A stretch of DNA of 64,000 nt from Ochromonas danica (lineage: Eukaryota > Sar > Chrysophyceae > Chromulinales > Chromulinaceae): NCBI GenBank assembly GCA_015146655.1, contig VKHL01000128.1:1-64000 (forward strand). The letters are read 5' to 3'. The translations under genes and the position numbers were made by a program. The notes below the pieces were generated by a model, which worked only from the letters and a program-made list of their open reading frames with translations, had not been told where the DNA came from and made no database searches. Shown piece after piece: positions 6,425 through 58,700 of the stretch (position 1 is the first letter of the stretch; each line of letters starts with the position of its first letter).

Positions 6425-6939
6425 TCAAGTTTCCGCGCAAGAATGACGATCTCTGCCAATTAAACCTGGTCTCTCCAGCAAAGTTTGAATCCCAGCCTTC
6501 ACCTCGACCATGTCAGCCATCACCTGGGTTATGTCAGCCTTCACCTGGGTTATGTCAGCCTTCACCTGGGCCATGTCCTTCTCGAGTTGCACGATTCTCT
6601 TGAATCCGTCTTGGCCAAGAATAGAACACTCTCGTTCCAGCATGTTTCTCAGAAAACGTCCGTGACGGAGGCGATGAAGACATGCCAGCTGGTCGTACTA
6701 ATCCCCAGTCTCGAAATTCGAGGTTTTCTCCCGAGAAAGTCCAGAAAGACGGGTTTCATCAAGTGTGAAAACCAACGGTTTTTAAAACATTCTTTTTCAG
6801 TGTTTTCAAAGAGCAATTTCTGTCTTTTCCAGCTTCTCCTGCCAAAATCTATTTGTTGTCTGATTGAAGCATTGATATCTTCTGAATCTTGTTTAGGTCG
6901 CCGAAATGAGTGAGTAGGTCCAAGGGCTTCATTATACAA
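6425..6939 (-). CDS. Possible small coiled-coil gene, structure uncertain
   Basis: Two open frames in different phases. The downstream one (6643-6425, ATG start, 72 residues) is a heptad coiled coil with near-perfect 7-residue repeats (KADITQV twice, then variants) encoded by 21-bp tandem repeats at about 6505-6577. The upstream one (6939-6649, 96 residues) is basic and has no recognised domain. They could be two exons of one gene or unrelated. I could not find a convincing splice pair. The repeat also opens the antisense frame, so coding is not certain. Confidence 0.3.
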
Positions 6940-7243: not shown

Positions 7244-10200
7244 CTAAGCAACGACGATACTATTCCATTCACGACCTTGCCCATTTCCGAAGTCGTACTG
7301 CATGGTCATATCATAAGCACCACAGCCTCCAATCAAAATCCAATCTCCACTTTGAATCTCACATGGAAGCATCAATCCAGATGAACCCAGACCACAGCTG
7401 CCCACTCCAGCACCATTCATCCAGCCATTCGTTTTACCGACGAGTATGTCAAACTCCATGCAAGTACGTCCCCAGATTTCATCTTCACCCAGTCTTTCCA
7501 GCTTCAACCATTGACTTTCAGCCTTCTTGTTCGAAGAAGTATGAGGTCGCCAAAAGATTGGATGGATATGAGGAATAGATATCTCAGCAATAGACGCATC
7601 GACGATTATAGCACGACTAATAGCTCGACATGTTCCTTTCTCCCCGTTACACGGAATAGGAGCTCGAGTCACATCAAGCTCGCGTACTTCCAATACTCGA
7701 CAGAGAACAGATGCAATTGGTTCAGAGATACACTTCCCTAGTTCATAGAAGATAGTCAAAGTATGATCGCCAATCTTGGCATGTTCCACAAGACAGTCTG
7801 CAAGTAAATGTTGCATTTCATGTTGCGCTACAGTCTCTGCTTCCAAAACATTGGGTTGCCACCCTCCTCCAAAATCCATCACTTCTAGAACTTTTCCGGA
7901 AAGCACGGCAATACGTTGAGCAAGAGCCCAAGCACCGCGAGCAATAGACTTCCACTTGCGACTTCCCATTCCAGGAGCAGAGGAAGCAAAATGAACTTGA
8001 CCACCAAATTTAACACCTTGAGGAAGATGATCTCGCAAGAGACTAGCAACCGCAAGAATAACTTGCGGATTACTACCATCTATACCAAAACGAGACTGAT
8101 TACTGCTATCTGGCGGTTGAAATCTTACTCCAACGACCCCCGCCCTTAGATAATCATTGGGGTCATTAATTCGTCTGAGGATCGTTTTCAGATCCCCTAT
8201 AGAGTCTGCAAAGATTGCCTTCAATCTCAATCCATCTCGCTGGCATTTATAATTGTTCAGAACACTTCTCGCAGATGGTGTCTTCCCTTCCCAGAACTTT
8301 CCAGGACCAACCAGGAGAATTTGATTGGGTTGATAACCAACATCTAAAGCAGCCCCCACTTCAGCCATAGAAATGCATTCTGCTCCGTAACCACGATCTC
8401 TTGCTTGAGATAGAAGTAATCTATGAGGCTGAGTTTTCACAGAGATATGAAGCTGAATCGCGAGAGGTAACGAAGGTGCGCTGTTGCTCACATTTGTTAA
8501 CATAGTTTTGAAAAGCTGATCATAGGATTCCAAGGATCGCGTGGCCAATTCACTAGAAATCAGATATGTTGGTGTAAGCAGGCTGCCTTGCCGCGCTTCA
8601 TAATCAGACAATAAGTGATCTGTTGATTCCAAAGCAACTTCCCACCATTGTTTCGATAATCTATTGCGATCTAGTTCACTATTGTCTGATGATAATAAAG
8701 AGTTGATAGCTTCATTTGGATACTCTATTGCTCCGTTTTCTTTTGTTGCAGATAAATTATGAAAAGAAAGCACCACCTCTTCATGAGCGATACTACTGCT
8801 GCTTGAAGAACAGCCTCTGTTGATTGCTTTGGTAGTAGAGCAGCTCCCCAAGTTTGACAAAGAAGCAGTGATAGGAATCTCAATATGCTTGACTTCTTGC
8901 TCATATACAGATCGTGTGAAACTAATAGGCAGTACTGAGGCATACTTTTCATACGACCATCGACCTTTGCCTTCTTTCCGATAAAGTAAAGCATGCTCAA
9001 TTAAGTCTCCTGGTAAATTACAGCCCGCCAAAGATCCTCCAAAGATCCATGCAGGAAAGCGAGGGTTGAAGTCAATAATGTACCATTTGTTCTTCTTATC
9101 ATCCAAGCCTTCAGCCAGAACTTCAATAAACTCCAATTCTCCCCCACCAGTCCAATTAGAAGATCGTACAAAATAAGCCAATGTTGGAATGAAAGACTCC
9201 TCCACGGCTTCCACTCGTGCTGACCAGACCTTCCCGCCATACGTGAGATTTATTTTTCTAATCTGGACACATCCTGTAAGTTCTCCTGAAACTGCTGCGA
9301 ACGCAATTGTCTTTTCTTGCCCTTGTATATATTGCTGAATAAATATCTGACCATTTTGATCGTGAGATAGAAAATGGAAAAGCTCTTGCAATAAAGTGTT
9401 CCAATCAATGCAAACCTTCGCTTTATTCACTGAGGTCTTCAGCAGAACAGGAAACGAAACTTGCTCACAAAACTTATTGATATCTTGTAAGACTTCAACG
9501 AGAGGTCGATCCATCATTTCAACAATAAGATAATCAGGAATAGCAAAGCAGCCCATTCCAACTGCCCCTTCAATGATTGGCTTCTGTACTAGAGCTATTA
9601 CAGCTTGATCAGGGCACAAGATTCTTTGACAAGTATTGCGATAGAGGGACATCTTATTTTCTTTCAAGTCACAGTCTTTGAGAGAAGATAAAGCTCTTTG
9701 CAAAGCACTTTTCTTTGCAGAGAGGAAGTAAACATCGCTATCTGAGCACTATCAAGAACACACAGTTGGGTAATGCCTGTCCAACAAAAGTTTTGCCAAA
9801 ACATGTACACAACTCACCGGAAGAATAAAGCTATCAAAGGAACAATCAGAGGGAAGAGCAATAATCCTTGATGGTTCATTGACCATCATCATGATAGATT
9901 CCCACAGTTGCTCCTCCGCAAGTTCATCTTCACGAAGCTCTTCGATATGATTGAAATTGCCGAGGCGGTAAAGAGGGGCTTCGATGGTAGGTAAATATCC
10001 TGAGGCCAGCTTTCTATAACAGCTCAAATGGACAATATCATCGAAAACGGGGTCCTGCAAACCGCTCATAGGGTTGCCTTCAGCATCATCAATACCCACA
10101 AGAAGAAGATTATCTTCCATATTTGACTTTTTCTGCTCCTTGAACCAAGCTTTCAAACACCGGGCAGTACCCACACCTGGCATTGGATTATTCCCCATAT

Positions 10201-11011
10201 TACAACCAGAAATGAAAACAATGAGTTGTTTTGGAGTCAAAGAGACTTCTTCACTATTACCAACACAGTTGCAGTGCTCTTCTAAACCTAATGCTCGAGG
10301 AATATTGAGCCACTCCATAATAGGCAGCCTCAGCTTTCCATCCCACATAACATATTCATTTATTTGTTTAGCATGGACAGGATTTATTCGAACGGCCAAG
10401 ACACTATCAAGACATCCAATCTGTGAAGGACACATAATCCATTTACCATAGTCCCAAACTCTTAAATGACGTGAGATCTGCGAGTAAATACCAATGCATT
10501 GGTGATAAGTAGCTCTTTCTCGCAACCAATGAGTATAGAGATGTGCATTAGCTCCATACTCTCTCTGAACGGTCTGTTCGGTCAGTGCGTTATCACGCCT
10601 ATTCCCAACTTTGATTAACTGTACGCTAGCAAAAGCCAAATTATCGAACGCACTGCTATCAGGGATCGAAGAGAAGGAGGTGCTTTGATGATGATGATTC
10701 TTCCAAATCTTGAGTGCTCTCAGAGCCAGAGCTGTCATTGCTCCACAATCCAAATCATTCGGAAATTGTAGCATATGGCACAAATATTTTTCAAAATGTA
10801 TTCCCCATTGGAATGAAGAGGAGAGATAGGTCAAGACACCTTGTATACCATCCTGTGACTTCCCACCAGCAGAAATCACGGCAGCTTCGAATGCGCCCAT
10901 AGCAGCAGCACAACAAGGAGCCATGGTACTACCTTGAAAATGAAAACACACATCGAAGTTAGGCAAAAAATCTTCTTCTATTAGTTCCTTAACAGCATCT
11001 TCTACAGACAT
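7244..11011 (-). CDS. Multi-domain enzyme: transglutaminase-like, ATP-grasp and PLP decarboxylase
   Basis: Two exons (11011-9818 and 9748-7244) with a 69-nt GTGAGT...ATAG intron in phase, 1232 residues. Seen in order: residues about 10-215 have a Cys-His-Asp pattern (LDCGAMTAL, TYHQCIGIY, RVWDYGKWI) like transglutaminase/papain-type folds. Residues about 255-400 resemble a pre-ATP-grasp domain (FISGCNMGNNPMPGVGTA, LVGIDDAEGNPMSG). Residues about 400-690 are ATP-grasp (PVLLKTS, QQYIQGQEKTIAFA, metal ligands IIDFNPRFP). Residues about 770-1225 are a fold-III PLP decarboxylase of the ODC/DapDC family with the PLP lysine in HISVKTQP, HFASSAPG, DFGGGWQP, YELGKCISEP, catalytic-type Cys in GRTCMEFD, and GGCGAYDM. 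The combination suggests amide ligation plus decarboxylation of an amino acid. The substrate is unknown. The ATG at 11011 is used, not an upstream GTG. Confidence 0.85.
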
Positions 11012-17664: not shown

Positions 17665-19796
17665 ATGCATAAGAAGAAAGATACTAACAAAGCAAGATTT
17701 CTTTACATTTATGCTCTTGGTAAGATTATGAAGGAATTGATGTTGTTTTTTGTCTTGCCTGGCGTATGTCCCTCATGCTGTTTCCTTGCTTAGGTGTTTG
17801 TGTGATGTGCGGAAGACAAACCTTTCAGTGGCATATTGGTAAGTGGAACATAACCACATACCATACATACACCCCCCATGTGATCGTGATCACTGACTTG
17901 TTAATGGATGTGATGACAGGCTTTGGAAAGTATGACGCTTTTCTCTATGGTATGGCGGTCCTGGTGTACGTTGTCGCCTTCACCATGTTGACCTTCAGCT
18001 TTGTTGAGCTGATCTCCATCGTTCCCTTCTCTGGTGGATGCTATGGCTACTCTCGTTGTGCGTTGGGTCCCGCTGTGGGTTACGTGGCTGGCATGTTCGA
18101 AACAGCGAAGTACATTCTCTATGCCACATTCAACATTCGTCGTTTGGGCGACATCTTTCATAACATCTATGGTTTTGAGGAGAAATATGAGATCATGATT
18201 TGGCTAGCCTTCTTGGTCGCCTTCAATCTCATGCATCACTTTCAAACAAGGATGCTGTGGTGGACGATAGCTTTAGTGGGCTTCGCGATCTTCGTAACTC
18301 AGGTGATCTTTATCATGGGATCGACGAGTGCAGGGACGGTGACGAATCTTAGTGCTTCTCAGTGGGACAATAATCCGGCCCACTTTGTGGAGGCCCTACC
18401 ATACGCTACCTACATGCTGTCAGCTCTTGATGCAGTTCGCACATGCGTGGATAATCAGGTAGATGCCATGTGATTTGATGTGGATGCTGCTGTCACTTGT
18501 TGTCTGTACATTAGTTTGTTTTGCTGACAACAACACTATTTTCTCACTCGTTTGTTAGCAGGGAAGCGATATTGTTCCTAGAGCTTTGCTTCATATATTG
18601 GCTTGGTCGACTGTAGCTGGTGTGGCTTCCATTGTGGCTCAAGCCGCTTACGTTCATGATGACGAATCTCTCATCAATGAGCATTATGCTTATACTGTCG
18701 GGTTGAGGATGGCGTTGAACCTCAATGCTGACGACAAGTTCGTGACTCTGTTTGCTTTACCAGGTTCCTTGGGGTGTTGCTTGGGGTTTCTGTATTGTGC
18801 TTCTCGTCAGGTTAGATCGATGGCGAGCTCAGGTTTGTTGCCTCCTATCCTGGCCAAGGGAGGGGGTCAGAAAGTGAGAGACAGCAGTCAACCAGTAGCT
18901 CAAGCCAGTTCCGTTGTGCCTGGTGACGGTGCAGAAGTGAGAAGGGGCAGTAACCATGGCAGTACTCAGAGAGGAGGTGCAGACGCACAGGACTTCTCCC
19001 ATGGTAGCAAGCCTACGGTGGCGGTATTTGCCTCTTCTGTGTTGTGTTTCAGCTTGTTGCTTGTTGGCCACTTTCTCATAACCGAGTACTGGGATATTTA
19101 TACCCAAATGGGCCAGCTATTGAATTCGTCTATGTATCAATTTCTGATGATATCTTATGTTGTGTTTTCTACCCGTTTTTCGAATATGGAGAGAGGAATC
19201 AAGAGTCCCTTCGGCATCCCTGGGGCCTTGCTTGCTATGGGCTTCTTTCTATTGCTATTTATTGTCTGTCTGCATGACAATCCCAAAACTAATACAGGAT
19301 ATGGGATTACGTTGGTTGTGTTCACAGTGTCTATCTTGATTTATTACGTTGTGGTAGTTCAGCACCGTCAGTTCTTCTCGAAAGAAGAACAGGAGAAGTT
19401 CATGAAGGCCTATGTTGTGAATGGTGAGTATCTTTTTTCCTGCGCTTGTCGTTGTTTGTTACATAGTTGTAGTATGATCTAAGAGCGATGGGTTGTAACG
19501 TGTTGTTTGTTATGTGGTGTGTGTGGATGTGTGTGTCTTGGATAGCAAACAAGACTCGCAAGCGAGGCAAGTCTGGCAGTAACAGCAGACAAAGCGGCAA
19601 AAGTACGAGTGTACTGGGTATTCTTGCTGGAGCTGCAATGCTTTTCCAGCCTAACGCTTCTCGAGGAGTGAGTAATCGCAGTGGCAGTCGTGGATCTTCG
19701 ATGTCTGGTCAAATCAAGGCATCAACTAGTGGTAATGTCAATGTTGGTCGTAATAACACGGTAGTTCCTGCTCAGCTGACGGGAAGTATTGAATGA
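17665..19796 (+). CDS. APC-superfamily permease, ethanolamine/amino-acid type, copy 1
   Basis: Five exons: 17665-17719, 17794-17838, 17920-18458, 18562-19423 and 19546-19796. The phases sum to 584 codons. The start region reads ALG then VCVMCGRQTFQWHIG, FGKYDAF, the APC pattern of the first broken helix, followed by SFVELISIVPFSGGCYGYSR and FETAKYILYATFNIRRLGD. About 12 membrane helices are visible. A hydrophilic loop (GGGQKVRDSSQ to FSHGSKP) and a basic Ser/Gly-rich tail are extra. Closest family I can name is the ethanolamine permease-like branch of APC, which takes up ethanolamine or amino acids by ion coupling at a membrane. The first intron is 74 nt and not a multiple of three, unlike in the other copies. 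Confidence 0.88.
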
Positions 19797-20623
19797 TCGT
19801 TTCTGTACGCTATTCGAATTATTTGTTTGTCAGACTGCTTTGTCAGTCGAGAGTTGCAGCGAGGAGTGTTTTGTTCCTTTGGCTATAATGTGCTGATAGT
19901 ACCCCTCTTTGCATTGTATTGCTTTTCGCTGTTCTCATTCTTTCCTGTTTTTGTTGAGGTATTGCTTTTCACATTTCATTCTTTGATATTATTTTGGTAT
20001 TATGCTAGCTGCAAGCTGGGTTATGAAGAAACTTTTATCATATTATATCGGTAGATTGGTTTTCAACTCTCGTTGAGTAACGCAATTATCCTTAAATCAA
20101 ATTTCTTCCTACAACGACTTGGCAAAACCTTCTTTTAATGTTAGTTAGAAAGTATATTAACTAAATTTACTGTTTACTGGTAGTTTGGTACTGTGCACCA
20201 CCTGGTCAGATTACTAGTTCCATCCCTGCGATTTTGGACAGATTCGAATTTCCCATTCGGAATTCAAAAAGTCGGAGGTCTCGGCGTGTCGTTTGAAGTC
20301 CAATGGATGAGAAGAAAACTAGAAAATGGCAAAGATTAGACTATTCCTATTTATTCGCTGTAGTTTGGACTTTGGAAAGAGGAAAGTCTAAAACCAAGTG
20401 TTTAAAGTCTAAAATCCAAGACCATGGCTTTCTCTTGTTTTCTCTTGTGCTGAAAATTCCGGAATTGCAGTTTCGCACATTGCTGCTCTGTACAGAATAT
20501 TTGCAGAAGCGAAATAGGCAGTGACCCTGACCCTCTGATTCTCGTTGTCACAACAGAAATGACACAACTAAATGTCATTATCATAAGTAATTGATTGAAG
20601 TAAAACAACGAGCAAACCAAACC
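19797..20623. other. Spacer between permease copies 1 and 2
   Basis: Holds the 3' region of copy 1 and the promoter of copy 2. It contains related short blocks (GTCTAAAACCAAG, GTCTAAAATCCAAG near 20388-20423). Short open frames here have no support. The same spacer recurs at 22733-23559. Confidence 0.6.
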
Positions 20624-22732
20624 ATGCATAAGAAGAAAGATACTAACAAAGCAAGATTTCTTTACATTTATGCTCTTGGTAAGATTATGAAGGAATTGTT
20701 GTTGTTTTTTGTCTTGTTTCCATGCTCAGGTGTTTGTGTGATGTGCGGAAGACAAACTTTTCAGTGGCATATTGGTAAGTGGAACATAACCACATACCAT
20801 ACATACACCCCCCATGTGATCGTGATCACTGACTTGTTAATGGATGTGATGACAGGCTTTGGAAAGTATGACGCTTTTCTCTATGGTATGGCGGTCCTGG
20901 TGTACGTTGTCGCCTTCACCATGTTGACCTTCAGCTTTGTTGAGCTGATCTCCATCGTTCCCTTCTCTGGTGGATGCTATGGCTACTCTCGTTGTGCGTT
21001 GGGTCCCGCTGTGGGTTACGTGGCTGGCATGTTCGAAACAGCGAAGTACATTCTCTATGCCACATTCAACATTCGTCGTTTGGGCGACATCTTTCATAAC
21101 ATCTATGGTTTTGAGGAGAAATATGAGATCATGATTTGGCTAGCCTTCTTGGTCGCCTTCAATCTCATGCATCACTTTCAAACAAGGATGCTGTGGTGGA
21201 CGATAGCTTTAGTGGGCTTCGCGATCTTCGTAACTCAGGTGATCTTTATCATGGGATCGACGAGTGCAGGGACGGTGACGAATCTTAGTGCTTCTCAGTG
21301 GGACAATAATCCGGCCCACTTTGTGGAGGCCCTACCATACGCTACCTACATGCTGTCAGCTCTTGATGCAGTTCGCACATGCGTGGATAATCAGGTAGAT
21401 GCCATGTGATTTGATGTGGATGCTGCTGTCACTTGTTGTCTGTACATTAGTTTGTTTTGCTGACAACAACACTATTTTCTCACTCGTTTGTTAGCAGGGA
21501 AGCGATATTGTTCCTAGAGCTTTGCTTCATATATTGGCTTGGTCGACTGTAGCTGGTGTGGCTTCCATTGTGGCTCAAGCCGCTTACGTTCATGATGACG
21601 AATCTCTCATCAATGAGCATTATGCTTATACTGTCGGGTTGAGGATGGCGTTGAACCTCAATGCTGACGACAAGTTCGTGACTCTGTTTGCTTTACCAGG
21701 TTCCTTGGGGTGTTGCTTGGGGTTTCTGTATTGTGCTTCTCGTCAGGTTAGATCGATGGCGAGCTCAGGTTTGTTGCCTCCTATCCTGGCCAAGGGAGGG
21801 GGTCAGAAAGTGAGAGACAGCAGTCAACCAGTAGCTCAAGCCAGTTCCGTTGTGCCTGGTGACGGTGCAGAAGTGAGAAGGGGCAGTAACCATGGCAGTA
21901 CTCAGAGAGGAGGTGCAGACGCACAGGACTTCTCCCATGGTAGCAAGCCTACGGTGGCGGTATTTGCCTCTTCTGTGTTGTGTTTCAGCTTGTTGCTTGT
22001 TGGCCACTTTCTCATAACCGAGTACTGGGATATTTATACCCAAATGGGCCAGCTATTGAATTCGTCTATGTATCAATTTCTGATGATATCTTATGTTGTG
22101 TTTTCTACCCGTTTTTCGAATATGGAGAGAGGAATCAAGAGTCCCTTCGGCATCCCTGGGGCCTTGCTTGCTATGGGCTTCTTTCTATTGCTATTTATTG
22201 TCTGTCTGCATGACAATCCCAAAACTAATACAGGATATGGGATTACGTTGGTTGTGTTCACAGTGTCTATCTTGATTTATTACGTTGTGGTAGTTCAGCA
22301 CCGTCAGTTCTTCTCGAAAGAAGAACAGGAGAAGTTCATGAAGGCCTATGTTGTGAATGGTGAGTATCTTTTTTCCTGCGCTTGTCGTTGTTTGTTACAT
22401 AGTTGTAGTATGATCTAAGAGCGATGGGTTGTAACGTGTTGTTTGTTATGTGGTGTGTGTGGATGTGTGTGTCTTGGATAGCAAACAAGACTCGCAAGCG
22501 AGGCAAGTCTGGCAGTAACAGCAGACAAAGCGGCAAAAGTACGAGTGTACTGGGTATTCTTGCTGGAGCTGCAATGCTTTTCCAGCCTAACGCTTCTCGA
22601 GGAGTGAGTAATCGCAGTGGCAGTCGTGGATCTTCGATGTCTGGTCAAATCAAGGCATCAACTAGTGGTAATGTCAATGTTGGTCGTAATAACACGGTAG
22701 TTCCTGCTCAGCTGACGGGAAGTATTGAATGA
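20624..22732 (+). CDS. APC-superfamily permease, copy 2
   Basis: Same five-exon structure as copy 1. Exon 1 is 20624-20678, and later exons are shifted by 2936 bp from copy 1; the predicted protein is identical over the aligned parts. Its first intron is only 51 nt (GTAAGATTATG ... CCATGCTCAG), in frame and free of stops, so unspliced RNA would still be translatable through it. The same holds for the 81-nt second intron. The spacers on both sides are the same as those flanking copies 1 and 3, implying a very recent duplication or ongoing gene conversion. Confidence 0.88.
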
Positions 22733-23559
22733 TCGTTTCTGTACGCTATTCGAATTATTTGTTTGTCAGACTGCTTTGTCAGTCGAGAGTTGCAGCGAGG
22801 AGTGTTTTGTTCCTTTGGCTATAATGTGCTGATAGTACCCCTCTTTGCATTGTATTGCTTTTCGCTGTTCTCATTCTTTCCTGTTTTTGTTGAGGTATTG
22901 CTTTTCACATTTCATTCTTTGATATTATTTTGGTATTATGCTAGCTGCAAGCTGGGTTATGAAGAAACTTTTATCATATTATATCGGTAGATTGGTTTTC
23001 AACTCTCGTTGAGTAACGCAATTATCCTTAAATCAAATTTCTTCCTACAACGACTTGGCAAAACCTTCTTTTAATGTTAGTTAGAAAGTATATTAACTAA
23101 ATTTACTGTTTACTGGTAGTTTGGTACTGTGCACCACCTGGTCAGATTACTAGTTCCATCCCTGCGATTTTGGACAGATTCGAATTTCCCATTCGGAATT
23201 CAAAAAGTCGGAGGTCTCGGCGTGTCGTTTGAAGTCCAATGGATGAGAAGAAAACTAGAAAATGGCAAAGATTAGACTATTCCTATTTATTCGCTGTAGT
23301 TTGGACTTTGGAAAGAGGAAAGTCTAAAACCAAGTGTTTAAAGTCTAAAATCCAAGACCATGGCTTTCTCTTGTTTTCTCTTGTGCTGAAAATTCCGGAA
23401 TTGCAGTTTCGCACATTGCTGCTCTGTACAGAATATTTGCAGAAGCGAAATAGGCAGTGACCCTGACCCTCTGATTCTCGTTGTCACAACAGAAATGACA
23501 CAACTAAATGTCATTATCATAAGTAATTGATTGAAGTAAAACAACGAGCAAACCAAACC
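22733..23559. other. Spacer between permease copies 2 and 3
   Basis: Same sequence as the spacer at 19797-20623 as far as I can compare. Confidence 0.6.
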
Positions 23560-25668
23560 ATGCATAAGAAGAAAGATACTAACAAAGCAAGATTTCTTTA
23601 CATTTATGCTCTTGGTAAGATTATGAAGGAATTGTTGTTGTTTTTTGTCTTGTTTCCATGCTCAGGTGTTTGTGTGATGTGCGGAAGACAAACTTTTCAG
23701 TGGCATATTGGTAAGTGGAACATAACCACATACCATACATACACCCCCCATGTGATCGTGATCACTGACTTGTTAATGGATGTGATGACAGGCTTTGGAA
23801 AGTATGACGCTTTTCTCTATGGTATGGCGGTCCTGGTGTACGTTGTCGCCTTCACCATGTTGACCTTCAGCTTTGTTGAGCTGATCTCCATCGTTCCCTT
23901 CTCTGGTGGATGCTATGGCTACTCTCGTTGTGCGTTGGGTCCCGCTGTGGGTTACGTGGCTGGCATGTTCGAAACAGCGAAGTACATTCTCTATGCCACA
24001 TTCAACATTCGTCGTTTGGGCGACATCTTTCATAACATCTATGGTTTTGAGGAGAAATATGAGATCATGATTTGGCTAGCCTTCTTGGTCGCCTTCAATC
24101 TCATGCATCACTTTCAAACAAGGATGCTGTGGTGGACGATAGCTTTAGTGGGCTTCGCGATCTTCGTAACTCAGGTGATCTTTATCATGGGATCGACGAG
24201 TGCAGGGACGGTGACGAATCTTAGTGCTTCTCAGTGGGACAATAATCCGGCCCACTTTGTGGAGGCCCTACCATACGCTACCTACATGCTGTCAGCTCTT
24301 GATGCAGTTCGCACATGCGTGGATAATCAGGTAGATGCCATGTGATTTGATGTGGATGCTGCTGTCACTTGTTGTCTGTACATTAGTTTGTTTTGCTGAC
24401 AACAACACTATTTTCTCACTCGTTTGTTAGCAGGGAAGCGATATTGTTCCTAGAGCTTTGCTTCATATATTGGCTTGGTCGACTGTAGCTGGTGTGGCTT
24501 CCATTGTGGCTCAAGCCGCTTACGTTCATGATGACGAATCTCTCATCAATGAGCATTATGCTTATACTGTCGGGTTGAGGATGGCGTTGAACCTCAATGC
24601 TGACGACAAGTTCGTGACTCTGTTTGCTTTACCAGGTTCCTTGGGGTGTTGCTTGGGGTTTCTGTATTGTGCTTCTCGTCAGGTTAGATCGATGGCGAGC
24701 TCAGGTTTGTTGCCTCCTATCCTGGCCAAGGGAGGGGGTCAGAAAGTGAGAGACAGCAGTCAACCAGTAGCTCAAGCCAGTTCCGTTGTGCCTGGTGACG
24801 GTGCAGAAGTGAGAAGGGGCAGTAACCATGGCAGTACTCAGAGAGGAGGTGCAGACGCACAGGACTTCTCCCATGGTAGCAAGCCTACGGTGGCGGTATT
24901 TGCCTCTTCTGTGTTGTGTTTCAGCTTGTTGCTTGTTGGCCACTTTCTCATAACCGAGTACTGGGATATTTATACCCAAATGGGCCAGCTATTGAATTCG
25001 TCTATGTATCAATTTCTGATGATATCTTATGTTGTGTTTTCTACCCGTTTTTCGAATATGGAGAGAGGAATCAAGAGTCCCTTCGGCATCCCTGGGGCCT
25101 TGCTTGCTATGGGCTTCTTTCTATTGCTATTTATTGTCTGTCTGCATGACAATCCCAAAACTAATACAGGATATGGGATTACGTTGGTTGTGTTCACAGT
25201 GTCTATCTTGATTTATTACGTTGTGGTAGTTCAGCACCGTCAGTTCTTCTCGAAAGAAGAACAGGAGAAGTTCATGAAGGCCTATGTTGTGAATGGTGAG
25301 TATCTTTTTTCCTGCGCTTGTCGTTGTTTGTTACATAGTTGTAGTATGATCTAAGAGCGATGGGTTGTAACGTGTTGTTTGTTATGTGGTGTGTGTGGAT
25401 GTGTGTGTCTTGGATAGCAAACAAGACTCGCAAGCGAGGCAAGTCTGGCAGTAACAGCAGACAAAGCGGCAAAAGTACGAGTGTACTGGGTATTCTTGCT
25501 GGAGCTGCAATGCTTTTCCAGCCTAACGCTTCTCGAGGAGTGAGTAATCGCAGTGGCAGTCGTGGATCTTCGATGTCTGGTCAAATCAAGGCATCAACTA
25601 GTGGTAATGTCAATGTTGGTCGTAATAACACGGTAGTTCCTGCTCAGCTGACGGGAAGTATTGAATGA
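23560..25668 (+). CDS. APC-superfamily permease, copy 3
   Basis: Matches copy 2 base for base as far as I can compare, including both 3n stop-free introns, up to the stop at 25668 and a little beyond. Its 3' flank then departs from that of copies 1 and 2. This copy therefore marks the old right-hand end of the array. The terminal residues are TGSIE, as in the others. Confidence 0.88.
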
Positions 25669-46706: not shown

Positions 46707-49700
46707 ATGTTTGAACAAGGATTATCATTCCTATTAAAGAAGATCTTAAGAGACTTTGTAGAAGATGGAGATAATCTAAATGATAAAGTCCAAGTGGGAG
46801 TTTGGTCAGGCTTGATTGTCTTAGAAGACTTAGTTCTCAAGAACTCAATCTTCAATCTCTTAGAAGCTCCTATTGTTCTAAACTATGGATATATTGGTCG
46901 TTTTGAGTTGCAAATTCCATGGAGTCGACTAGGTTATGAGCCTGTCACGGTCGTGTTAGACAAAGTCTATATCCTAGTCGAACCAAAGTATGAATGGAAC
47001 CCTGGTGCAGCTGATAAACGAGAACAAGCTATGAAACAAACTAAACTAGCAGCTGCAGAACTGTTTGCTAATCAACGTATGCAGGAGCTTTCCAATGGCA
47101 ATGGTAGCAGTGGAGGTAGTGGTGGAGGATATGCTGGATTAGCGAAGAATTGGTTCATGAGTGCTTTGCTAAGTAAGATAGTAGACAAGATCCAATTCAC
47201 TGTTCGTGAGTTGCATGTTCGATATGAAGACAAACTTTCGTGTCCAAGTGAGTTTTGTGTGGGATTTTCGTTTGAATCATTGCATCTGCTTTCTCGTGAA
47301 GGAACAGGATCCTTTGATGGCGAACCATCACCAAGTAATCATCAACAAACCTCTATAATGGATACGGAACGAAATTATGAGCAAGAGCTTAAGATAGAAG
47401 GTGTTGATGCTTGGCATAAATTGGCTGAATTGAACCACTTGGCTGTCTATTGGAATCCATTACATGATAAAGGATTGGATGTGTGCTCTTGCTCGTTCAT
47501 TGGTAGATCTACGCGAGAAATTCAAACATTAATGTCTCGTACAGTAGTTACGCGAGTGTTTAAATCCTATGAGAGACCCCGACATCATTACATTCTCAAT
47601 CCTGTTGATATCAAGTCTTATATAGATGCCACGGTGAATGTGTCGACTGGTTCTGCAAAGGTTTGTTCTCGTTGTATGTGTTTGTAATACTTGGTATTCT
47701 TGTAACTTCTGTCTGTTTCCTTGTAGGCAAGAGTGAAAGTGTTAATATCCGACATCTCCATCTGTCTTGAGGACCAACAACTTCGGGAAATCATCTCGAT
47801 GGCCATCAATATGACCAACTTTTCAAAGCTTGAGAGATTTAGTGAGTATAGACCTATCTGTGCTGTTTTAGAAGATCCTAAAGCATGGTGGAGGTATGCT
47901 GTTTTCTGATGGCTATGATTGTTTTTACATGGATTGTTATCATTTGTTGCATGATTGTTATGGAAATAGGTATGCCATCAATGCTGTTTTGATTGAGCTT
48001 CGTTTAGAGAAGAAGCGAGAATTTAGTTTAAAGCGATTTATGAAGCGCGCGCGTGATAAAGCAGTTTACGTAGAACTTTGGCGAAGTCGTTTAGTTAGCC
48101 CGGCTTCTGCTGTCAATCAACTTGGGCAGGTTAATGATAGTCTACCTCTGCTAGATCGGGAGAACAACCTACTTTATCAACAACTTTTGATAATTGGACG
48201 TAAACGGTTAACAACAGAGCAACGCAAGAGAAGAGCTTCCAAGACGGATTTGACTGTTGCTTCGAGTGCAAAGTTAGCAGATTCTGCGTTGATAACAAGT
48301 GGCTCAGAAATCGATCTGAACGCTGTAGTTCCTTTAGATACAGAGAGAATCCAGCTCTTACAGCAACTAGAATATGATCTCTCGTTTGAAGATATTCTAT
48401 TCTTCCGCTCGTTGGCAGATCTTCATGCACCCGTTGATTACAAACCGACATCTTGGACTGGAAATATTATGGGGTGGATAACAGGGAAGCCTGCTTCAAA
48501 TGGAGATGAAGATCGTGGCAAATTGATGGATGCTTTGAAATATGATCCTGATCATTTGTTTCGTGGAGGAGCAGCTAAAGTCGATCTCAATGAGGTCATG
48601 TCGATTATCGATGTCCACCTTAAGGAAGGGTCGGTGGTGTTGTCATTGTCTGCACCAGAAACATCGAACACGTTCCAAGCAGCTATTCCTTTCTTACAGT
48701 TTAAAATGGAGAAGCTATCTTTGAAGACTATTACTATGGGCGATGGGAGTCATATTAAAGTCTATTGTGCCTTGCAGGATTTTGAAGGATTTGAATTACA
48801 TCCTGCAAATCCTCGAAGCCGAAGATTGGCATCTCCTTCCTCACAAATGGAATTACAACAGCATCGCTTCATCTTTAGAAGAACATTGAAAGTGGAGAAG
48901 TCATCTACAGGCGGATCAGAGTCTAACTTCTCAATGTCTGAGGAGCGCAGTACTCATTCACAAAGTTCTCGTCTTCGTGCTAGTAACATTTCAATTGCTC
49001 CTTTGTTCTCCTGTGTTATCGAAACATTTCCTGCGGGCAATGAAATTGAGATGTTGGTGAAGCTGAATGTGGAAGAATTAGAGATGTGGCTGTCTCCATC
49101 TGCACGATGGATTGATAGCATTGCCATCTTCTCCTCTTGGCCGGAAGATGTGAAATATTGGAGTGAAATGGAGATGAAAGCAATGAATCAGATGGATGAT
49201 TTGAAATCTCGTGTCAATGCTAAGTTGGATTATATGATGAATAATCATTCCAATATCGTCATAGAAGGAAAAGTGCAAGCTCCTATCCTTGTCATTCATG
49301 ATCATCAACCGGATGTTAATTGCAAAGCTAGTTTGTTAGTTGTTGATTTGGGATTATTAACATTGAGTACTCAGAAATTGGCAAAAGCTCAACGCACGAA
49401 AGAATTGGAAGTACTAAATCAAGTGTCTGCCATGATGAATAGCAAGGCAGAAAGAAGTAATAGTAGTCTCTCTTCCAACAAGAAAGCAGGTCCTTCAGTT
49501 AAAGATTGGGAAATCCTACGATCGGAAAGTAAGTCCAATAAAGATCATTTTCCTCAAGATTTGGAGCTTTTGTTCGATGGAGTCAAGATGGAAGACAATC
49601 AAAGTGTCATGGAGAATCCCTTGGATAATACACAACATCGTCGCTCTAGTATTTTCCATAAATATGGAGAACATCCTGGGCAGGATAACCTTCCTGGTGC

Positions 49701-52700
49701 TATGGAATTCGACTCACAAGAAGAGGAATTATTTGATATTTTCATCTCCAAGATCTCTCATATTGAGGTCTACTTTGTCGAAGCAATTGTTAATACCTCT
49801 CTGGATGGGAAATGGAATGTTCAATATGAAATTGACAAGACTGTTATGGTGGAACGTTTTGAAATTAATGTTGAGATTCAAGTTTCTGCTTTACCATGGG
49901 ATATTACACTTCCTCCGCTAAAACTCTTTGTTGATATCCCAGAAATCAATATTGAGCTATCAGATGCAAAGATTTTACGTGTAATACAATTTGTTGCACA
50001 GATGATGAAACAAACAGAAGCCTTGTCTTCTAAGAATCAGCGTCCATTGCCGAAAAGCAAGCAAAAGACGAGTAAAGTGGTTTCGACTAAACCTGAGCCA
50101 ACAAAGAAGCTTGTTTCATTGCCTGCAGGAAGCAAGCCTCCACTTTCTTCACCCGCAACTATTACTCCTAACTTCAACCGAAAGAGAAAGTACCGTAGGA
50201 GTCGTGGTCGCAGTGTGGGAGATACTTCCACGGTATTCTCTGATGCAAAGTCTGTGCTGTCAGCTCATACTGCTCGTTCCATCTCCAATACACGTATAAA
50301 TGAGAATGGGTTGGGTTGGGCGAAAGATCTGTCCGCTTCTAATTATCAGGATGCTTTAGATACCCCATTTGACAATGATAGCGATGATGGGAGTTTTTTC
50401 TCGGTTGTTGAAGCGTTCGATGATCATGAAGATGATGAAGATGGACAAAACAAAAGTCTAAGTTTAGAAGAGCTCAAGTTTGTGATTGCACAGCGAGAAG
50501 CTATGCATACCAATCTATTGACAGATTTGCGTCTGAGTGAACTGGATCCCAGTCGAACTGCTCAACGTGAGAGTTTAAAGCGAGAACTTACTGCGTATGA
50601 GATGGAGCTGCATCAGTTGAAAGTTTCTTATGTAGAGCTGCTGATGAATAGCAAAGATCAAAACACCTTTGATTATGAATCCAAGACCACATCTACATTT
50701 GATCATGACGCCTTTGATGAACATGTCCACAACATGTTGGAGCCCGATTTTGTCAATGCTCACAATAATCATAATACTGCTCGCAAACGAGATATGATCC
50801 AAGCAAGTGTTTTCAGATTATCTGCTGCTGCAAAGCCTGTTGAAACAGATTTAAGCAAAGGTCCGAATAAAGAACTGTTCTACATGAGAGTTAACATTGC
50901 GCAAATCAATGTTGACTTATTGTGTGGTGTGGATGCCACTGATGACTCCTCTTCAATTCAAAGCCCAAGTGCAGCTTTCTTGAGACATAATTGTCCCGCA
51001 TTTGAATCCAGATTAGGATTAACAAACTTTGGGATTAAATTGCGCCATCGGTCAAAAGATACGAAATTGAGCACACGTATTCGGGATGTCATTTTCTCAG
51101 AACAGTTGGCTCCTGGCCCTAAGATGACCATTGATATTCATCGACCACTTACACAGGGTGGTGTGCCACTAATTACTTCAGATCCATCTTACTTTTCCAC
51201 TTTAGGACTTCCAGTGAACTCAAGATCTGCCTATTCTTCATCTCAAAGCTATTCTGACCTTTTGACCATGCGATACGAGATATCATATGGTAGCAATGAA
51301 GGTGGCGAAGAATCCCTTTCAAAACATTGCTTGAATCTCACTTTGGGTTATCTAGCATTGAATTTCGACCAACAGCGGATCGCGCCTCTAATTCTGTGGT
51401 CTCAAGATTTGTCCAAATTGTTGCAAGCCACTATTGGTACCTCGAAGGCAACTGAGCCACCAAAAGACAAACAGAACACTGCCATGTCTAGTGAAGGTAG
51501 TAGTGATGAAGAGATATCTGACATATCTGTTCCGGTTGTCAATGTGGATTTCCGTATGGACACGTTATCCTTGAGTTGGCTGAATGGTCCTCAACCCCTT
51601 GTCAATGCCACGTTTACAGCGATGCGCAATGTGATTCAAACAAATGAACATGAAATTAATGTGGCATGCCGTATCGTTGACTTCTCTATTTTTGATCTCT
51701 CATCAACGATCACATCCAAGCCATTCCACCCAGTTCGTGAAAGTGGGTTTCGTCTGGGATCCAATAACATGATTTTTGGTCGAAATGCGCTCTCAGAAAC
51801 ACCATTCCTAGAGATTCTGAGCAGGATTGAACGACAATGCTGCAGGTCAGATGATGAAACGTTTCGATGGATGACAAATGGGAATGTTAAAGTAGCACCT
51901 CTTGGCTTGGACATACATGCTGCTTTCCTTGCAGCGGTGAGCAATGAAATTTCTAATGGCCCGCTTTTGCCTTTGCTGTCTGATGTCATGGAAGGCGAGG
52001 GTAGTGCAGTTCAAGCAGGCAACAATAATCCTAATGCACCTTCTCTAAACATGTTACTGAAGAGCAGTTTAGGAGAGAGTTGTGGCAATATTGAGGTTGA
52101 AGTCGATGGATTGTTTTTTAAGCTGCGCTTAGATGATGATCGTTTGCAACATAGTCATGATATGTCTTTGATTGTCCCACAAGTATGTTCTTACGTAAAC
52201 TGGGGTGAAGATGATGTATATGGCGATATTGCTCTTTCCGCCCAGTTATCAAACATTGAAGCTAGAGCTTGTGGGCAGCTGATCGTTGATCCTTTTGAGA
52301 TCAGTATGTTTGCCTTTATTGCTGGAAAGGATAGAAGTCGGTCCGTGTCACCAGCACAAGTTTACGCACTCAGAACTGCTTTCCCGCCTGACACTCTTCC
52401 CACATTACGAGGAGAAGAGGTGCAATTGGCCATAGCTGTTAGTCCTATTCGTCTTCATGTTAATAAACTCGTCGTTTCAGCTGCACAAGCTTTAGCAAAT
52501 GCTGGAAATTATTGGGCGAAAATCATTAGCCAAATTTGGAAAGTGAATTCAAACGAGCATATTGATCCTTTGCATTTGCTTGCGGTGACCCCTTTGAATG
52601 ATAACGTCACGTTGCCTTCTTTATGGTTCAAATTATCGTGCAATATTAAACTCTACGAAGTGGCAGCAATATTAGAAGAAATTGATGATCTTGAATGGCC

Positions 52701-55700
52701 CGGTACAGTTCATGAAGATGCTGGGATATTTGAAGATGAGTTTAATCTTGGGAATAAAGCAACACGATTTGTAGCTGCTCTACAGAATATTTCTTCAACG
52801 ACAATATTACCGAACGGAAAGGCCGCTCAAATCTCACCTCACTCTGTGGCGGAAGTATCATTCAAAATTGGACGCTTTAGTTTGGATGATATTGCAACTT
52901 TTCAAGTCTCGCGAACTATATTGAGTGTAGGAGATGAAGGAAATGCTCAAACTCCTTTGCCAAGTCCGGCTAGAAGCGGGTTAAGACCAGTCTTAGGGTC
53001 TAGTTTCGTTTCTGGACAGTTTGATTGTTTCGAAGATGGTCAATATTGTCTCAATACTGCATTTAATCAAGTTTATTTGGTACTTTTGGCTGATAGTCTG
53101 ATCAACTTATATGCAATGGTTGAAAGTCTTTCTCAGAGTGCGATCTCTCCGACATCTTCGGAGCGTCCACTTGCATCTTCCCAATTACCTGGTGGATCAT
53201 CTACAAAGGTCTCAAATTTGGACGATAAGTATGCTCATCCTTCATCAATACCATTGTCACCAGTTTCTTTCGAGGAGACCGCTCCTGTCATTGTCAAGGA
53301 AACAGAAAAGCGTCTGCCTCATCAAATCATCTCTTTTGATGCCATGTGGATGGAAGCAGTCAGTGGCTTGACAGTCGTTGTGGATGTTGTTGGGATAGAA
53401 GTTATTATTCCTACTTGCGGAGAAAGTTCTTCAGCTCATTTATCACTTCGCACTCAACTCAAATCCTCTCTTGTCTATCGTCGTCCTTCACGGAAAGTGA
53501 TTCGCGAGGCATTGGAGGATATTTCAAGAGCCAATATTGATATTCTGACTTGCAAAACAGAAGTTCCGTACTTGCATATCCATTATACGGAGCCATCGGT
53601 AATGTCCCAAGGTATGTCTTATGCTTCAAGTTCTGAAACTTTCCGTGTGGACAGCTTGCTATCATTGGATAGTGCAGCAGCATACTTCCCAACTTCTCCC
53701 TTACACACACCTGGGCCACCTTCTGAACGTAGAAGAAAGTCCTTGAACAGTCAATCTGGAGGAAATAAATTGAAAAGACTAGTAGATGTGGATGCAACAA
53801 TCCAATTCGCTACTTATTTCCAATGCAAACCGAATGAAGTTTCAACATCTGGCCTGTCAATGAAATATACTGATTTTTGGCGAGTGAAAGGATCTTCTGT
53901 TGATGTCATTCTACAAACAAAATTAGGTGTAGAAGTAACCCACTGCCAATTGAATGCATACCTTGACTATAGACCCTTGGTTAACCTGAATACGTTCTTC
54001 GTGGAGCCATTATCTAACATGATACAACAATCATCTCATAAAGCGGATAGTTCCACACCGGCAGATAATATTCCTCAAGAAGAAGAAACTGACACAAAGA
54101 GTTCCCAAGAGCAAGACTATTCAGTTGCTACTTCTTTGCCCATGTTCTTAGCGATTGCAGACAGCATGGCAGATGTGAATCTCTCGGTGAAAATCCAAGA
54201 AGCTTTCGTGCTTGTCATAAATGATGCCTTACCGCAGGCATTAACAGTTTTTCGAATGACTGCATTAGACACTGTGATTACAGCTACTGTTCCATATCCG
54301 ACACGTCCTTTGCATTGGATTATTTTGGAAAGAAATCACCCACAAGCTAGATCTTCTTCCGATTTGCAGTTATTGGCATCCAAGTTATCGCCTATTGCTG
54401 AGACATCTTTGGTTTCTAAAAGTGAAAGTGGGAGAACTCCTTTATTAGCTGCTGCGCATGTTGTGAAGAGAATGTTTACCTCTTCCACATCTTCCAGTGT
54501 GCTCAAAGATGGTGTGAAGCCTCAGTCCTCTAGCTCAAAGAGTGCTACCTGCTTTGTTGTTGTGAATGTTACAACTGCTGCTTCTATCGAATATTTCAAT
54601 CGAAAGCTTCTTGCTATGGAGCCACTTGTTGAACCTTTAGAAGCTCGTCTTACTTTCCAAATTACGAGATCAGCACGTGATGATCATGGTATTGCTCTAT
54701 TTCTGTTCAATGCTGATGAAAAACATATTTATCGTGAAGGAATGCATGGTTTGATTGGTCTCGCATTAACATCATACCCAGTCTTCGCATCTATCCCAGC
54801 ATCAACGGTCATCATTGACACTCCTCCACCTCAAGTTACCATCAAGCTTGATCATATTAATGTGAACGTTACCATGGGACTATTAGAGAATGTCTTTTCG
54901 GTTGTCAAAGCAGTTGATGCAATTGGTAAAATGGGATGTGATGATGGATCTAATAACAATCATAGTTCCTCTAATTTGGTTATTCGCAATGATTCGGGTA
55001 TGCCTATTCGATACTGGAGTCAGAAATCATCCCCTTCAATCATCTTGACGAGCTGTGAGGAACCTCTTGAGCTAGACGATGTTGACAACAAACAATCTGC
55101 AGCACGCAATCTATCAGGACAGCAAACTGGTTCCATGGTTAGGAGCATTAGTCTTGCCGTTCAGAAGTCAGATGGTAATTTTGGTATGACTCATAAGGAT
55201 ATCAGTCTAGAAGGTGTGGGTTATCGCATCATATCATCTCTCGATGATGTTGATAGTAGTAACTCCAGCTCTAGTGCATTTGATGAGAAAAAGCCGAGCA
55301 AAAGGAAGACACAAAAGGGATTAGTTAAGAATCAACCCACTGTTATCCCTCCATTGGTACTAGAATTAACCTCTCGAAATGGAAGCAAGCTTTTGGTTAT
55401 TCGCTCTACCATGAGAATCTTTAATTCAACCAACACAGCGTTCCATGTACGACTTGTAGAGAGTAAGACACGTTCTGCTCAATCCATTCTATGGGAATGT
55501 TACATGCCGCCAGGTCGAGGCTCCTTTATTCCTGCTGAGCTATGCAGTCTTACTGGTGCGTATTTCATGATCAGTGCTAGACCTCGTAAAGGTGAAGATA
55601 GTGTGGAGAAAGTTGGATCTTCATATTTCCCTATTCCTGTTGTACCTGGCTTAGCTGTGTCATCCACTTCAACGTCAACACAAAGTGTAGGGGAGAAGAA

Positions 55701-58700
55701 AGAAGTGGAAGATATTGATATGAATGAGAATGTTACTTCATCACGTCTCAATGAGATAACTTGGAGAAAGAAGATTCTTGATGAGAATAATGTCAATAAG
55801 CTGACCTATTCTCATTGGATTAACTTCAAACAACAGCAATCACCATCTTCATCATCTAATACCTTCTCTCATGGTTATCATGATTCCTCTTATCTCTATG
55901 AAAAACTCTCACAGACTACTACTACTAGTCTGTGTTGTAATATTGCAGTAGAATCTTATGGTATGTCAGTGAGAAAGAATGTCCCTACACCTTGTATGAT
56001 TCGTAATATCAAGATTATGGCTCCTATTCAATTGATTAATCTATTAGCTAATGATATACTCATTACATTATTACCTGATATGGAATCATTTGGTTTTACA
56101 AATGATCTTGATAAGTTATTTGAATTTGATTCTGATTTACAAGATACTATACCTCAATACTATATCAGACCTGGTGAAAGTAAAGAATGTTTACTTTATC
56201 ATACTCGTGAATCATTTCATCTCTCGATCAAATACTCACATGGTACTTCTTCTTCTAGTGCTAAAGTTGGATGGAGTAAGATGTTGAAAATCTCAGGTTG
56301 TTCTGAGGAAGCATCTCAAAACAATATCACCTATTATCTTGATATTCCATTCAAGAATGAATCCATTTTAACACTTTGTATTGATATGGTAGATAAAGGT
56401 GGTTGTCGTACGTTAAGTGTCTATACGCCCTATTGGATTATTTCAACTTCTTTCCTACCTTTACAATTCCAACATGATACTAAACAAAACAATCAAGAAG
56501 ATTCTCATCTTAATGGTGTAGATGGTTTAGCAGCAGATCAGTTTTATGAAGAAACACCAAATGCTACAATGAATATGAGGAATAAGAAGGCTAATATGGT
56601 TACTAGTTTACCACGTGGTATTGGTCGTGCAAGAGGATCAAATGGTATTCTATTAGGTCCTGAAGCACCTATCAAAGGTCTGTCTAATATCTTGTATTCT
56701 AATAGTATGCTTTATCATCGTTCAACTATTAGTGTATTCAATAGTCCTATGAGAAAGACTGTCAACACTACTACTACAACAAGTCGTGGTAGTGTCAGTA
56801 GTACTGGTAATGGTGGTGGGTTGTTGACAACATCTACATTGAATTATCAGATGAGTAAACCTGTCAGTAATGATCACATCATATCATTAGATGGCAGTAA
56901 GTCAGATCAGGCAGGTAGTGGTTCCATGCGAAGTAGACCATCTAAAGTGGGTGGCATTGGACTTACAGACTCCAATAGAGATACATCTACTTGGTATTCT
57001 TTAGTACATTGTGGGTATTCTAATCAAGAGAAAAGAACTGCACGAATTCGTTTTCGTCATCGTACAACTCAATGGAGTAAAGTTATTTCCATTGATGCAT
57101 TAGGTGTTGTCAACGTTTCTTTAGAATCAGTTGGTAAAGGCAGTTGTTCTGTGGATGATTCAAATGGTAGTAATACTATCAATTCACCTTTTTATAAAGA
57201 AGGGAAGAAGTTATTTTCTTTTGGTATTAGTATTCAAACATTAGATGTACCTTATCATCGAACACAAGCTGTTGTCATAGTTGATCAATTTACAATGATT
57301 AATAAGATTGGTCAAAGTATACAAGTTAAACAATATAAACAAGATAATATCTTTACATTACATGGTAATGATAATAATGAAGAAGTTCCATTATGGTGGC
57401 GTCCAGGAGATCAATTATTACAAATTCGTCTAACACGTTATGGATGGATGGATTGGTCAGGAAAGTTTTCAATTTCATCAGATGGTGAATATCCAATTCG
57501 TTTACGTAATAATTATGATAATACTGTCTTCTTTATTATGATCTTTGTTGCTAAATCTGGACCAAAAGTTACTGTTACTTTCAAATGTGGTGATCAAATT
57601 TCACCTTATCGTTTTGAAAATCATACCGTTGAGACATTCCGTATACAACAACATGGACAAAAACAATATAGTAATTTATTACCTTATCATTCTTGTGTCT
57701 ATGCATGGGATGAACCATTAGCACCACAACGTTTTACTATTTCAGCATTAAAAAATGCTTTCCAAACAGAAGATGATTGGCGTGAGATTGGTACATTTTC
57801 ATTTGAACGATTAGAATATCTTCCATCTCCTAAAACAAACTATAATCATTTAGTAATGCGTATTATTGCACATGGTCCAACACGTGTTTGTCAAATTTTT
57901 GATTCTCGTCTTGGTGGTAGTCAACAATATCATTTTCGAGAGAACAAGAAGATTAACAACAACACTAGCAGTAGCAGCAGTAACAATAGCAATGCTATAT
58001 GGATGACACCACAACCAAAACTATTTTCAATCTTAATAGATATTGATCGTTTAGGTATCTCTCTTGTTGATCAAACACCTGAAGAATTGATTTATATTGC
58101 CTTTCGTAAGATTGTGGTTAATCATTCTATGGATAGAAATGAATCTACTACATCTTTAACAATCAATCGTTTACAGATTGATAATCAATTATGGGCAACA
58201 CCTTATCCATCTATTCTACATCCATTACTTCCATTACAATCACCTACTGTTATTAAGAACAAAGAACCACCACCTTTTATTAAATTAGATATTCGACAAA
58301 GTTTTGAATATCCTGGTGAAGTTATTGTCTTACCAGAATTTGCTTTTCATATTGAAAGGTTTGATATTAACTTAGAAGGTACAATTATCTCTAAACTAGC
58401 AACAATGGTATTCAATTGTATGGAGTTAATGGATGAAGCTGCTTTGGCTATACCAGGACAAAGTGCACACAAATATCGTTTCCGTACTAATGAATCATCA
58501 TCATCATCAACAGCAATAGATGGGAATCATTCTAGCAGTACTACTACTATGCTATTATCATCGTATGACTTTGCTGATGCATTATCAACATCACCTTTTA
58601 TGATAGGAATGATAATAAATCATCAATCATCTTTAAATATCAAATCATCTATCCAACATATTCATGATTTATTAGATCAAATCTATCATCATCATCATTA

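Follow-up and report, generated by a model that had tools for sequence, protein, structure and literature searches.

A transglutaminase-like, ATP-grasp and decarboxylase fusion protein of Ochromonas danica and the corresponding gene pair of bacteria

What might a cell make with a ligase, a decarboxylase and a transglutaminase-like domain joined in one polypeptide? The question is raised by a gene of the alga Ochromonas danica, which lies on the minus strand at positions 7244–11011 of the 64,000-nucleotide stretch analyzed here (the window; positions 1–64,000 of contig VKHL01000128.1, assembly GCA_015146655.1). An earlier note, made from the DNA letters alone, had read the gene as a four-part protein in one spliced frame, with transglutaminase-like, pre-ATP-grasp, ATP-grasp and pyridoxal phosphate (PLP)-dependent decarboxylase segments. 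All segments were found where that note had placed them, and the 1232-residue product is a real, conserved enzyme fusion. Related fusions make up a family among eukaryotic-side sequences, and numerous bacteria encode the two halves in adjoining genes.

The Gene Encodes a Single Chain

The algal protein runs from a transglutaminase-like domain (residues 31–237) through a pre-ATP-grasp/ATP-grasp region (about 262–690) to a decarboxylase (770–1232). Exon 1 (9818–11011, residues 1–398) supplies the first domain and the start of the pre-ATP-grasp domain, and exon 2 (7244–9748, residues 399–1232) supplies the ATP-grasp and decarboxylase parts; the 69-nt intron between them (9749–9817) has the form GT...AG. 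This intron model, as originally proposed, is supported by EukProt protein P0001, which is identical over its length to the spliced product from Met30 onward, and by P0002 (41% identical) and P0014, both of which align without a gap over the splice site. Because homologs can be aligned upstream of Met30, the start at 11011 is favored. The ATP-grasp and decarboxylase parts are joined by a variable, Ser-rich linker (residues 691–769; 8636–8872) that aligns poorly, varies in length and has low pLDDT in the predicted model of a homolog.

That two neighboring genes were read as one through an artifact of annotation or assembly is extremely improbable, since homologous single open reading frames (ORFs) carry the parts in the same order and P0001 matches the spliced product exactly. 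P0014, which holds every part in one chain and is marked as a complete ORF, is present in MMETSP too. The homologous single ORFs refute the two-gene explanation for the family. Exon 2 has a single match in its own 31.2-Mb genome, in which 47 six-frame matches to chlorophyll-binding proteins were found, a sign of a photosynthetic alga. No description of this architecture was found among the matches listed in a search of the open-access literature, subscription papers being outside its scope, and the statement that no named enzyme is built in this way still holds after that search.

The N-terminal Domain Is Related to an Unnamed Bacterial Family

The transglutaminase-like domain (10301–10921) is the counterpart of the product of a downstream gene in bacteria. 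Exon 1 gave no significant match in Pfam, NCBIfam or PDB sequences, neither the window protein nor 10 bacterial counterparts matched the named transglutaminase/peptidase families of Pfam, and a profile of the bacterial family found nothing significant in the PDB. A hidden Markov model (HMM) built only from the unnamed bacterial protein family detected the algal domain with an E value of 3.4e-12. Because pairwise BLASTP of exon 1 against a Streptomyces counterpart gave an E value of 0.53, the homology rests on the profile.

Members of the transglutaminase-like superfamily are defined by a conserved Cys at the N-terminal end of a helix and a conserved His and Asp on the strands that come after it. 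In the AlphaFold2 model of the algal domain, Cys89 (10745–10747), the presumed nucleophile, opens a helix (residues 89–110), His170 (10502–10504) lies within a strand (167–177), and Asp187 (10451–10453) ends another (182–187). Cys89 and His170 are invariant in 46 aligned rows and Asp187, which with His170 would complete a triad, is at least 90% conserved. Residues and predicted topology agree in supporting the transglutaminase-like assignment; LapG, transglutaminase and NAT were fold neighbors of the model in VIA comparisons, all at middling Z, and no profile library makes the call. The best predicted fold match is to LapG and other bacterial transglutaminase-like proteinases, from which the algal domain differs in having ∼10% identity over the aligned part and no Pfam match.

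Besides the catalytic Cys, the bacterial versions (L013:6159–6827 and relatives) retain an HH, a CC close to the N-terminus and, at C91, a WC pair. The HH is absent from the window protein, in which C33, C34 and C78 are retained. The conserved His/Cys set of the bacterial versions is possibly a metal site.

The Bacterial Counterparts Are Adjacent Genes

The transglutaminase-like HMM was run over all six frames of 79 bacterial loci (78 and a plasmid), which include Sphingomonas, Collimonas and Streptomyces. A transglutaminase-like ORF was found directly downstream of an ATP-grasp-decarboxylase fusion, on the same strand, in 64 of these; the two genes are referred to below as the cassette. The order of the parts is swapped between bacteria and the eukaryotic side, where the same parts form one chain. 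The remaining 15 loci consist of two without room for the ORF (L022 and L056), eight distant versions in which ligase and decarboxylase are encoded separately (L071, L073 and L075–L080) and five without a transglutaminase-like ORF (L057, L061 and L065–L067).

Sixty genomes, counting the starting one, were drawn from the bacterial family to which L013 belongs; the transglutaminase-like gene was present in 10 of them and the fusion in 11, and the same 10 have both, side by side. In one of the 10 (G132) the match to the fusion was confined to its decarboxylase half, and in another (G126) a stop lies within the transglutaminase-like match. The eleventh fusion, that of G129, is an 88-residue fragment. 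Cassette-bearing genomes hold one copy each (20 of 20). The pair is patchy, because a search of 80 genomes of the phylum found the transglutaminase-like gene in the starting genome alone. The bacterial transglutaminase-like family has at least 742 members, and of the 120 members listed, none carries a Pfam domain or is named for a function.

Two kinds of neighboring gene were also observed. A urea-transporter-type gene lies beside or near the ligase-decarboxylase genes in 24 of the 79 loci (L004, L008, L010, L023, L026, L030, L034–L037, L039, L040, L047, L052, L053, L064, L071, L073 and L075–L080), the match in L026 being weak. Pfam UT was confirmed in both proteins scanned, and in L071 the protein also carries a fused peptidase M23 domain. 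The pathway may use or yield a small solute of the urea or amide type. A family of ∼250 residues with HRDH and distal NQYHG...SFSIRVDG motifs occurs in 22 of the 79 loci (including L007:1161–2668 and L016:73–915), with two neighboring copies in several. Judged by eye from its motif it resembles a 2-oxoglutarate oxygenase, and the two proteins scanned, those of L007 and L016, had no Pfam match. The two sets of loci overlap in L026 only, and neither kind of neighbor had a match in the algal genome, a result of no weight given that both searches were run without a positive control.

The ATP-grasp Part Is Placed Mainly through Bacterial Relatives

The pre-ATP-grasp (Rossmann-like) segment starts at residue 262 (9818–10228 within exon 1) and shows a VFISG...NPxPGVG...ARxLR pattern that is also found at the N-terminus of the bacterial fusions. 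With this segment, VIA comparisons gave weak matches to the L-amino acid ligase RizA as well as to Rossmann domains. The ATP-grasp region that follows (residues 399–690; 8873–9748) contains the motif IIDFNPRFP (9053–9079) together with K502, E604, D624, N626 and R628, which we take to be the ATP-grasp lysine and the acidic/Asn metal-ligand residues. The N-P-R-F-P stretch and the Lys are conserved.

The ATP-grasp region of the window protein has no Pfam match above cut-off, its NCBIfam match to PRK12767 (E 7e-7) is far below cut-off, and sequence searches of the PDB with the two exons gave nothing significant. The assignment is firmer because bacterial relatives do match: a profile of 11 of them found a biotin-dependent carboxylase subunit in the PDB (E 1.6e-6), and the split version L071 matches ATPgrasp_Ter at 1.5e-11, over the cut-off. 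The profile matches of these relatives and the conserved Lys and metal-ligand residues place the region in the ATP-grasp superfamily.

The C-terminal Part Is a Fold-III Decarboxylase

Residues 770–1232 (7247–8635) form a fold-III PLP decarboxylase. The match to PF02784 (Orn/DAP/Arg decarboxylase; 36.5 bits versus a cut-off of 23.4, E 4.6e-9) is the only Pfam match above cut-off in the whole protein, the C-terminal PF00278 falling below its own (E 0.09), and structural matches of the P0014 model agree. The equivalents of Lys836 (8435–8437) and of Cys1161 in GRTCMEFD (7460–7462) are invariant in 41 aligned rows. H984, GGG from residue 1025, E1067, D1165 and Y1210 are also present, with equivalents invariant or at least 90% conserved in the same rows. 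Presumably K836 is the PLP lysine, H984 the stacking His, E1067 part of the phosphate-binding E-x-G and C1161 the catalytic Cys. Profile score and conserved active-site residues both place this part among the Orn/DAP/Arg decarboxylases.

The Fused Form Lies on the Non-bacterial Side of the Tree

A tree was built from 68 sequences (the window protein, P0001–P0044 and 23 chosen bacterial loci), none of which was dropped. A branch with an ultrafast bootstrap of 100 divides the bacterial sequences from 30 others. The fused N-terminal domain was detectable in six database sequences (P0001, P0002, P0014, P0015, P0018 and P0030), all of which, like the window protein, are on the non-bacterial side, with P0030 as the first branch (97). 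This placement fits one fusion event early in the non-bacterial clade. A eukaryotic source label is attached to P0001, P0002, P0014 and P0015 (EukProt/MMETSP) and to P0010 (Ectocarpus fasciculatus) only. The N-terminal domain was not detected in 23 of the 29 database sequences of this side; most of the 23 are shorter than 950 residues, yet the domain is also missing from two long ones, P0016 and P0017. An alignment of nine eukaryotic-side proteins, used as query, returned just three proteins, among them the first row of the query itself, so the distribution was not widened. As for a viral origin, viral contigs yielded one weak partial relative (27% identity over query residues 1–375). In P0030, a GNAT acetyltransferase-like stretch appears by eye to be inserted between the decarboxylase halves, where the alignment has an insert.

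Proposed Reaction Sequence

We tentatively favor, with slightly less than even confidence, a single-chain enzyme that ligates, decarboxylates and then transfers or releases, akin to citryl-amino-acid decarboxylase pathways and butirosin side-chain assembly. The ATP-grasp part would activate a carboxylate and couple it to an amine, leaving one alpha-amino-acid end free. The decarboxylase would act on the resulting conjugate rather than on a free amino acid, like the citryl-ornithine and citryl-diaminopropionate decarboxylases and BtrK, and Cys89 would form an acyl-enzyme with the product, leading to transfer to another amine or to hydrolysis. The fusion may hold the intermediate between sites. 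We infer the substrates and the order of steps from the parts and their relatives; such a protein could provide the self-contained route to a modified metabolite that the earlier note had envisaged.

The relatives of the decarboxylase differ according to whether they are ranked by sequence or by fold. Among solved structures the best profile match is N-citrylornithine decarboxylase (FigC), with BtrK sixth among the solved sequences. Weighing against a conjugate as substrate, Foldseek with the P0014 model returned DapDC and D-ornithine/D-lysine decarboxylase first, DapDC and ODC were level with SbnH by Z, and in NCBIfam lysA scored above FslC for the three proteins compared. These results would suit a decarboxylase that acts first, on a free amino acid of the ornithine, lysine, diaminopimelate or arginine type, after which the ATP-grasp part would join the amine to a carboxylate and the transglutaminase-like domain would modify the amide further. 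Given the FigC match, we consider that order rather unlikely.

Within the preferred sequence of ligation, decarboxylation and transfer or release, the transglutaminase-like domain might act as a hydrolase and cleave off a protecting acyl group, giving a ligate-decarboxylate-deprotect route to a free amine. The top-ranked fold neighbors of the model, LapG and PeiP, are peptidases, and the butirosin route uses both transfer and deprotection. However, the transferases transglutaminase 2, NAT and GdmF amide synthase are also fold neighbors, at somewhat lower Z, and the fold does not distinguish transfer from hydrolysis. This sub-case is possible, if on the doubtful side.

In the closest known ligate-and-decarboxylate systems the parts are encoded separately. 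BtrJ is the ATP-grasp ligase of butirosin biosynthesis, and BtrJ, BtrK and BtrH are encoded by separate genes. Vibrioferrin biosynthesis likewise has an ATP-grasp enzyme and a PLP decarboxylase in one pathway (PvsA and PvsE), as separate genes beside nonribosomal peptide synthetase-independent siderophore (NIS) synthetases, which in the case of the FigA/FslA type are not ATP-grasp enzymes. The cassette differs from PvsA/PvsE in that its contig carries no NIS gene in 20 genomes. In butirosin biosynthesis, BtrK is a fold-III decarboxylase of conjugated glutamate and BtrH a papain-fold Cys acyltransferase (PMC2922099), and with BtrJ they offer the same three kinds of activity. That system uses the carrier protein BtrI (PMC7857480), a difference from the present one along with the sixth rank of BtrK; no PP-binding (acyl carrier) match was found within 50 kb of the cassette among the matches listed for 20 genomes. 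In rhizoferrin biosynthesis, FigA/FigC (FslA/FslC) follow the same ligate-then-decarboxylate logic: an ATP-dependent ligase gives an N-acyl amino acid, and a PLP enzyme of the alanine-racemase fold then removes the carboxyl group at its alpha end. That ligase, however, belongs to the NIS synthetases, the two are separate proteins, and the accessible portion of that article mentions no transglutaminase-like part (PMC7857480).

The resemblance of the decarboxylase to FigC and SbnH could suggest an NIS-type siderophore pathway in which the protein supplies a citryl-amine building block. IucA/IucC matches were found in 6 of 20 cassette genomes, always on a contig other than that of the cassette (the assemblies are drafts), and we regard this pathway as very unlikely. 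With IucA/IucC on the cassette's contig in none of the 20 genomes, an NIS siderophore locus was rejected.

Other Features of the Window

On the plus strand, three tandem copies of a two-piece ORF lie 2936 bp apart at 17724–25354 and are 99% alike over the 300 bp compared. By eye the ORF looks like an amino-acid permease, and the copies may reflect a recent duplication or an assembly artifact. Repeats at 21-bp spacing (6493–6597; three good copies and a fourth at 62%) give, on the minus strand, a KADITQV stretch that recurs. On the plus strand, 47872–60360 is one open frame of 4162 residues; judged by eye, the ORF before it resembles VPS13.

Implications

That the parts are fused on one side and tightly linked in an operon on the other strongly indicates that they serve one pathway. 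Together the two arrangements connect a bacterial protein family, with at least 742 members, to a ligase and a decarboxylase. Ligate-and-decarboxylate logic is known; what is new here is a variant carrying an unclassified transglutaminase-like family. At close to even confidence, though not quite reaching it, we suggest a hitherto undescribed pathway that algae have in common with bacteria. In it, an ATP-grasp ligase, a PLP decarboxylase specific for conjugates and a new family of transglutaminase-like acyltransferases would build an amino-acid-derived amide; eukaryotes would have acquired the pathway from bacteria once, joining the two genes to give one enzyme. Because the bacterial genes form a small pair and occur in genera with cultured strains, their reaction can be tested directly, and it would also indicate what the algal protein does.
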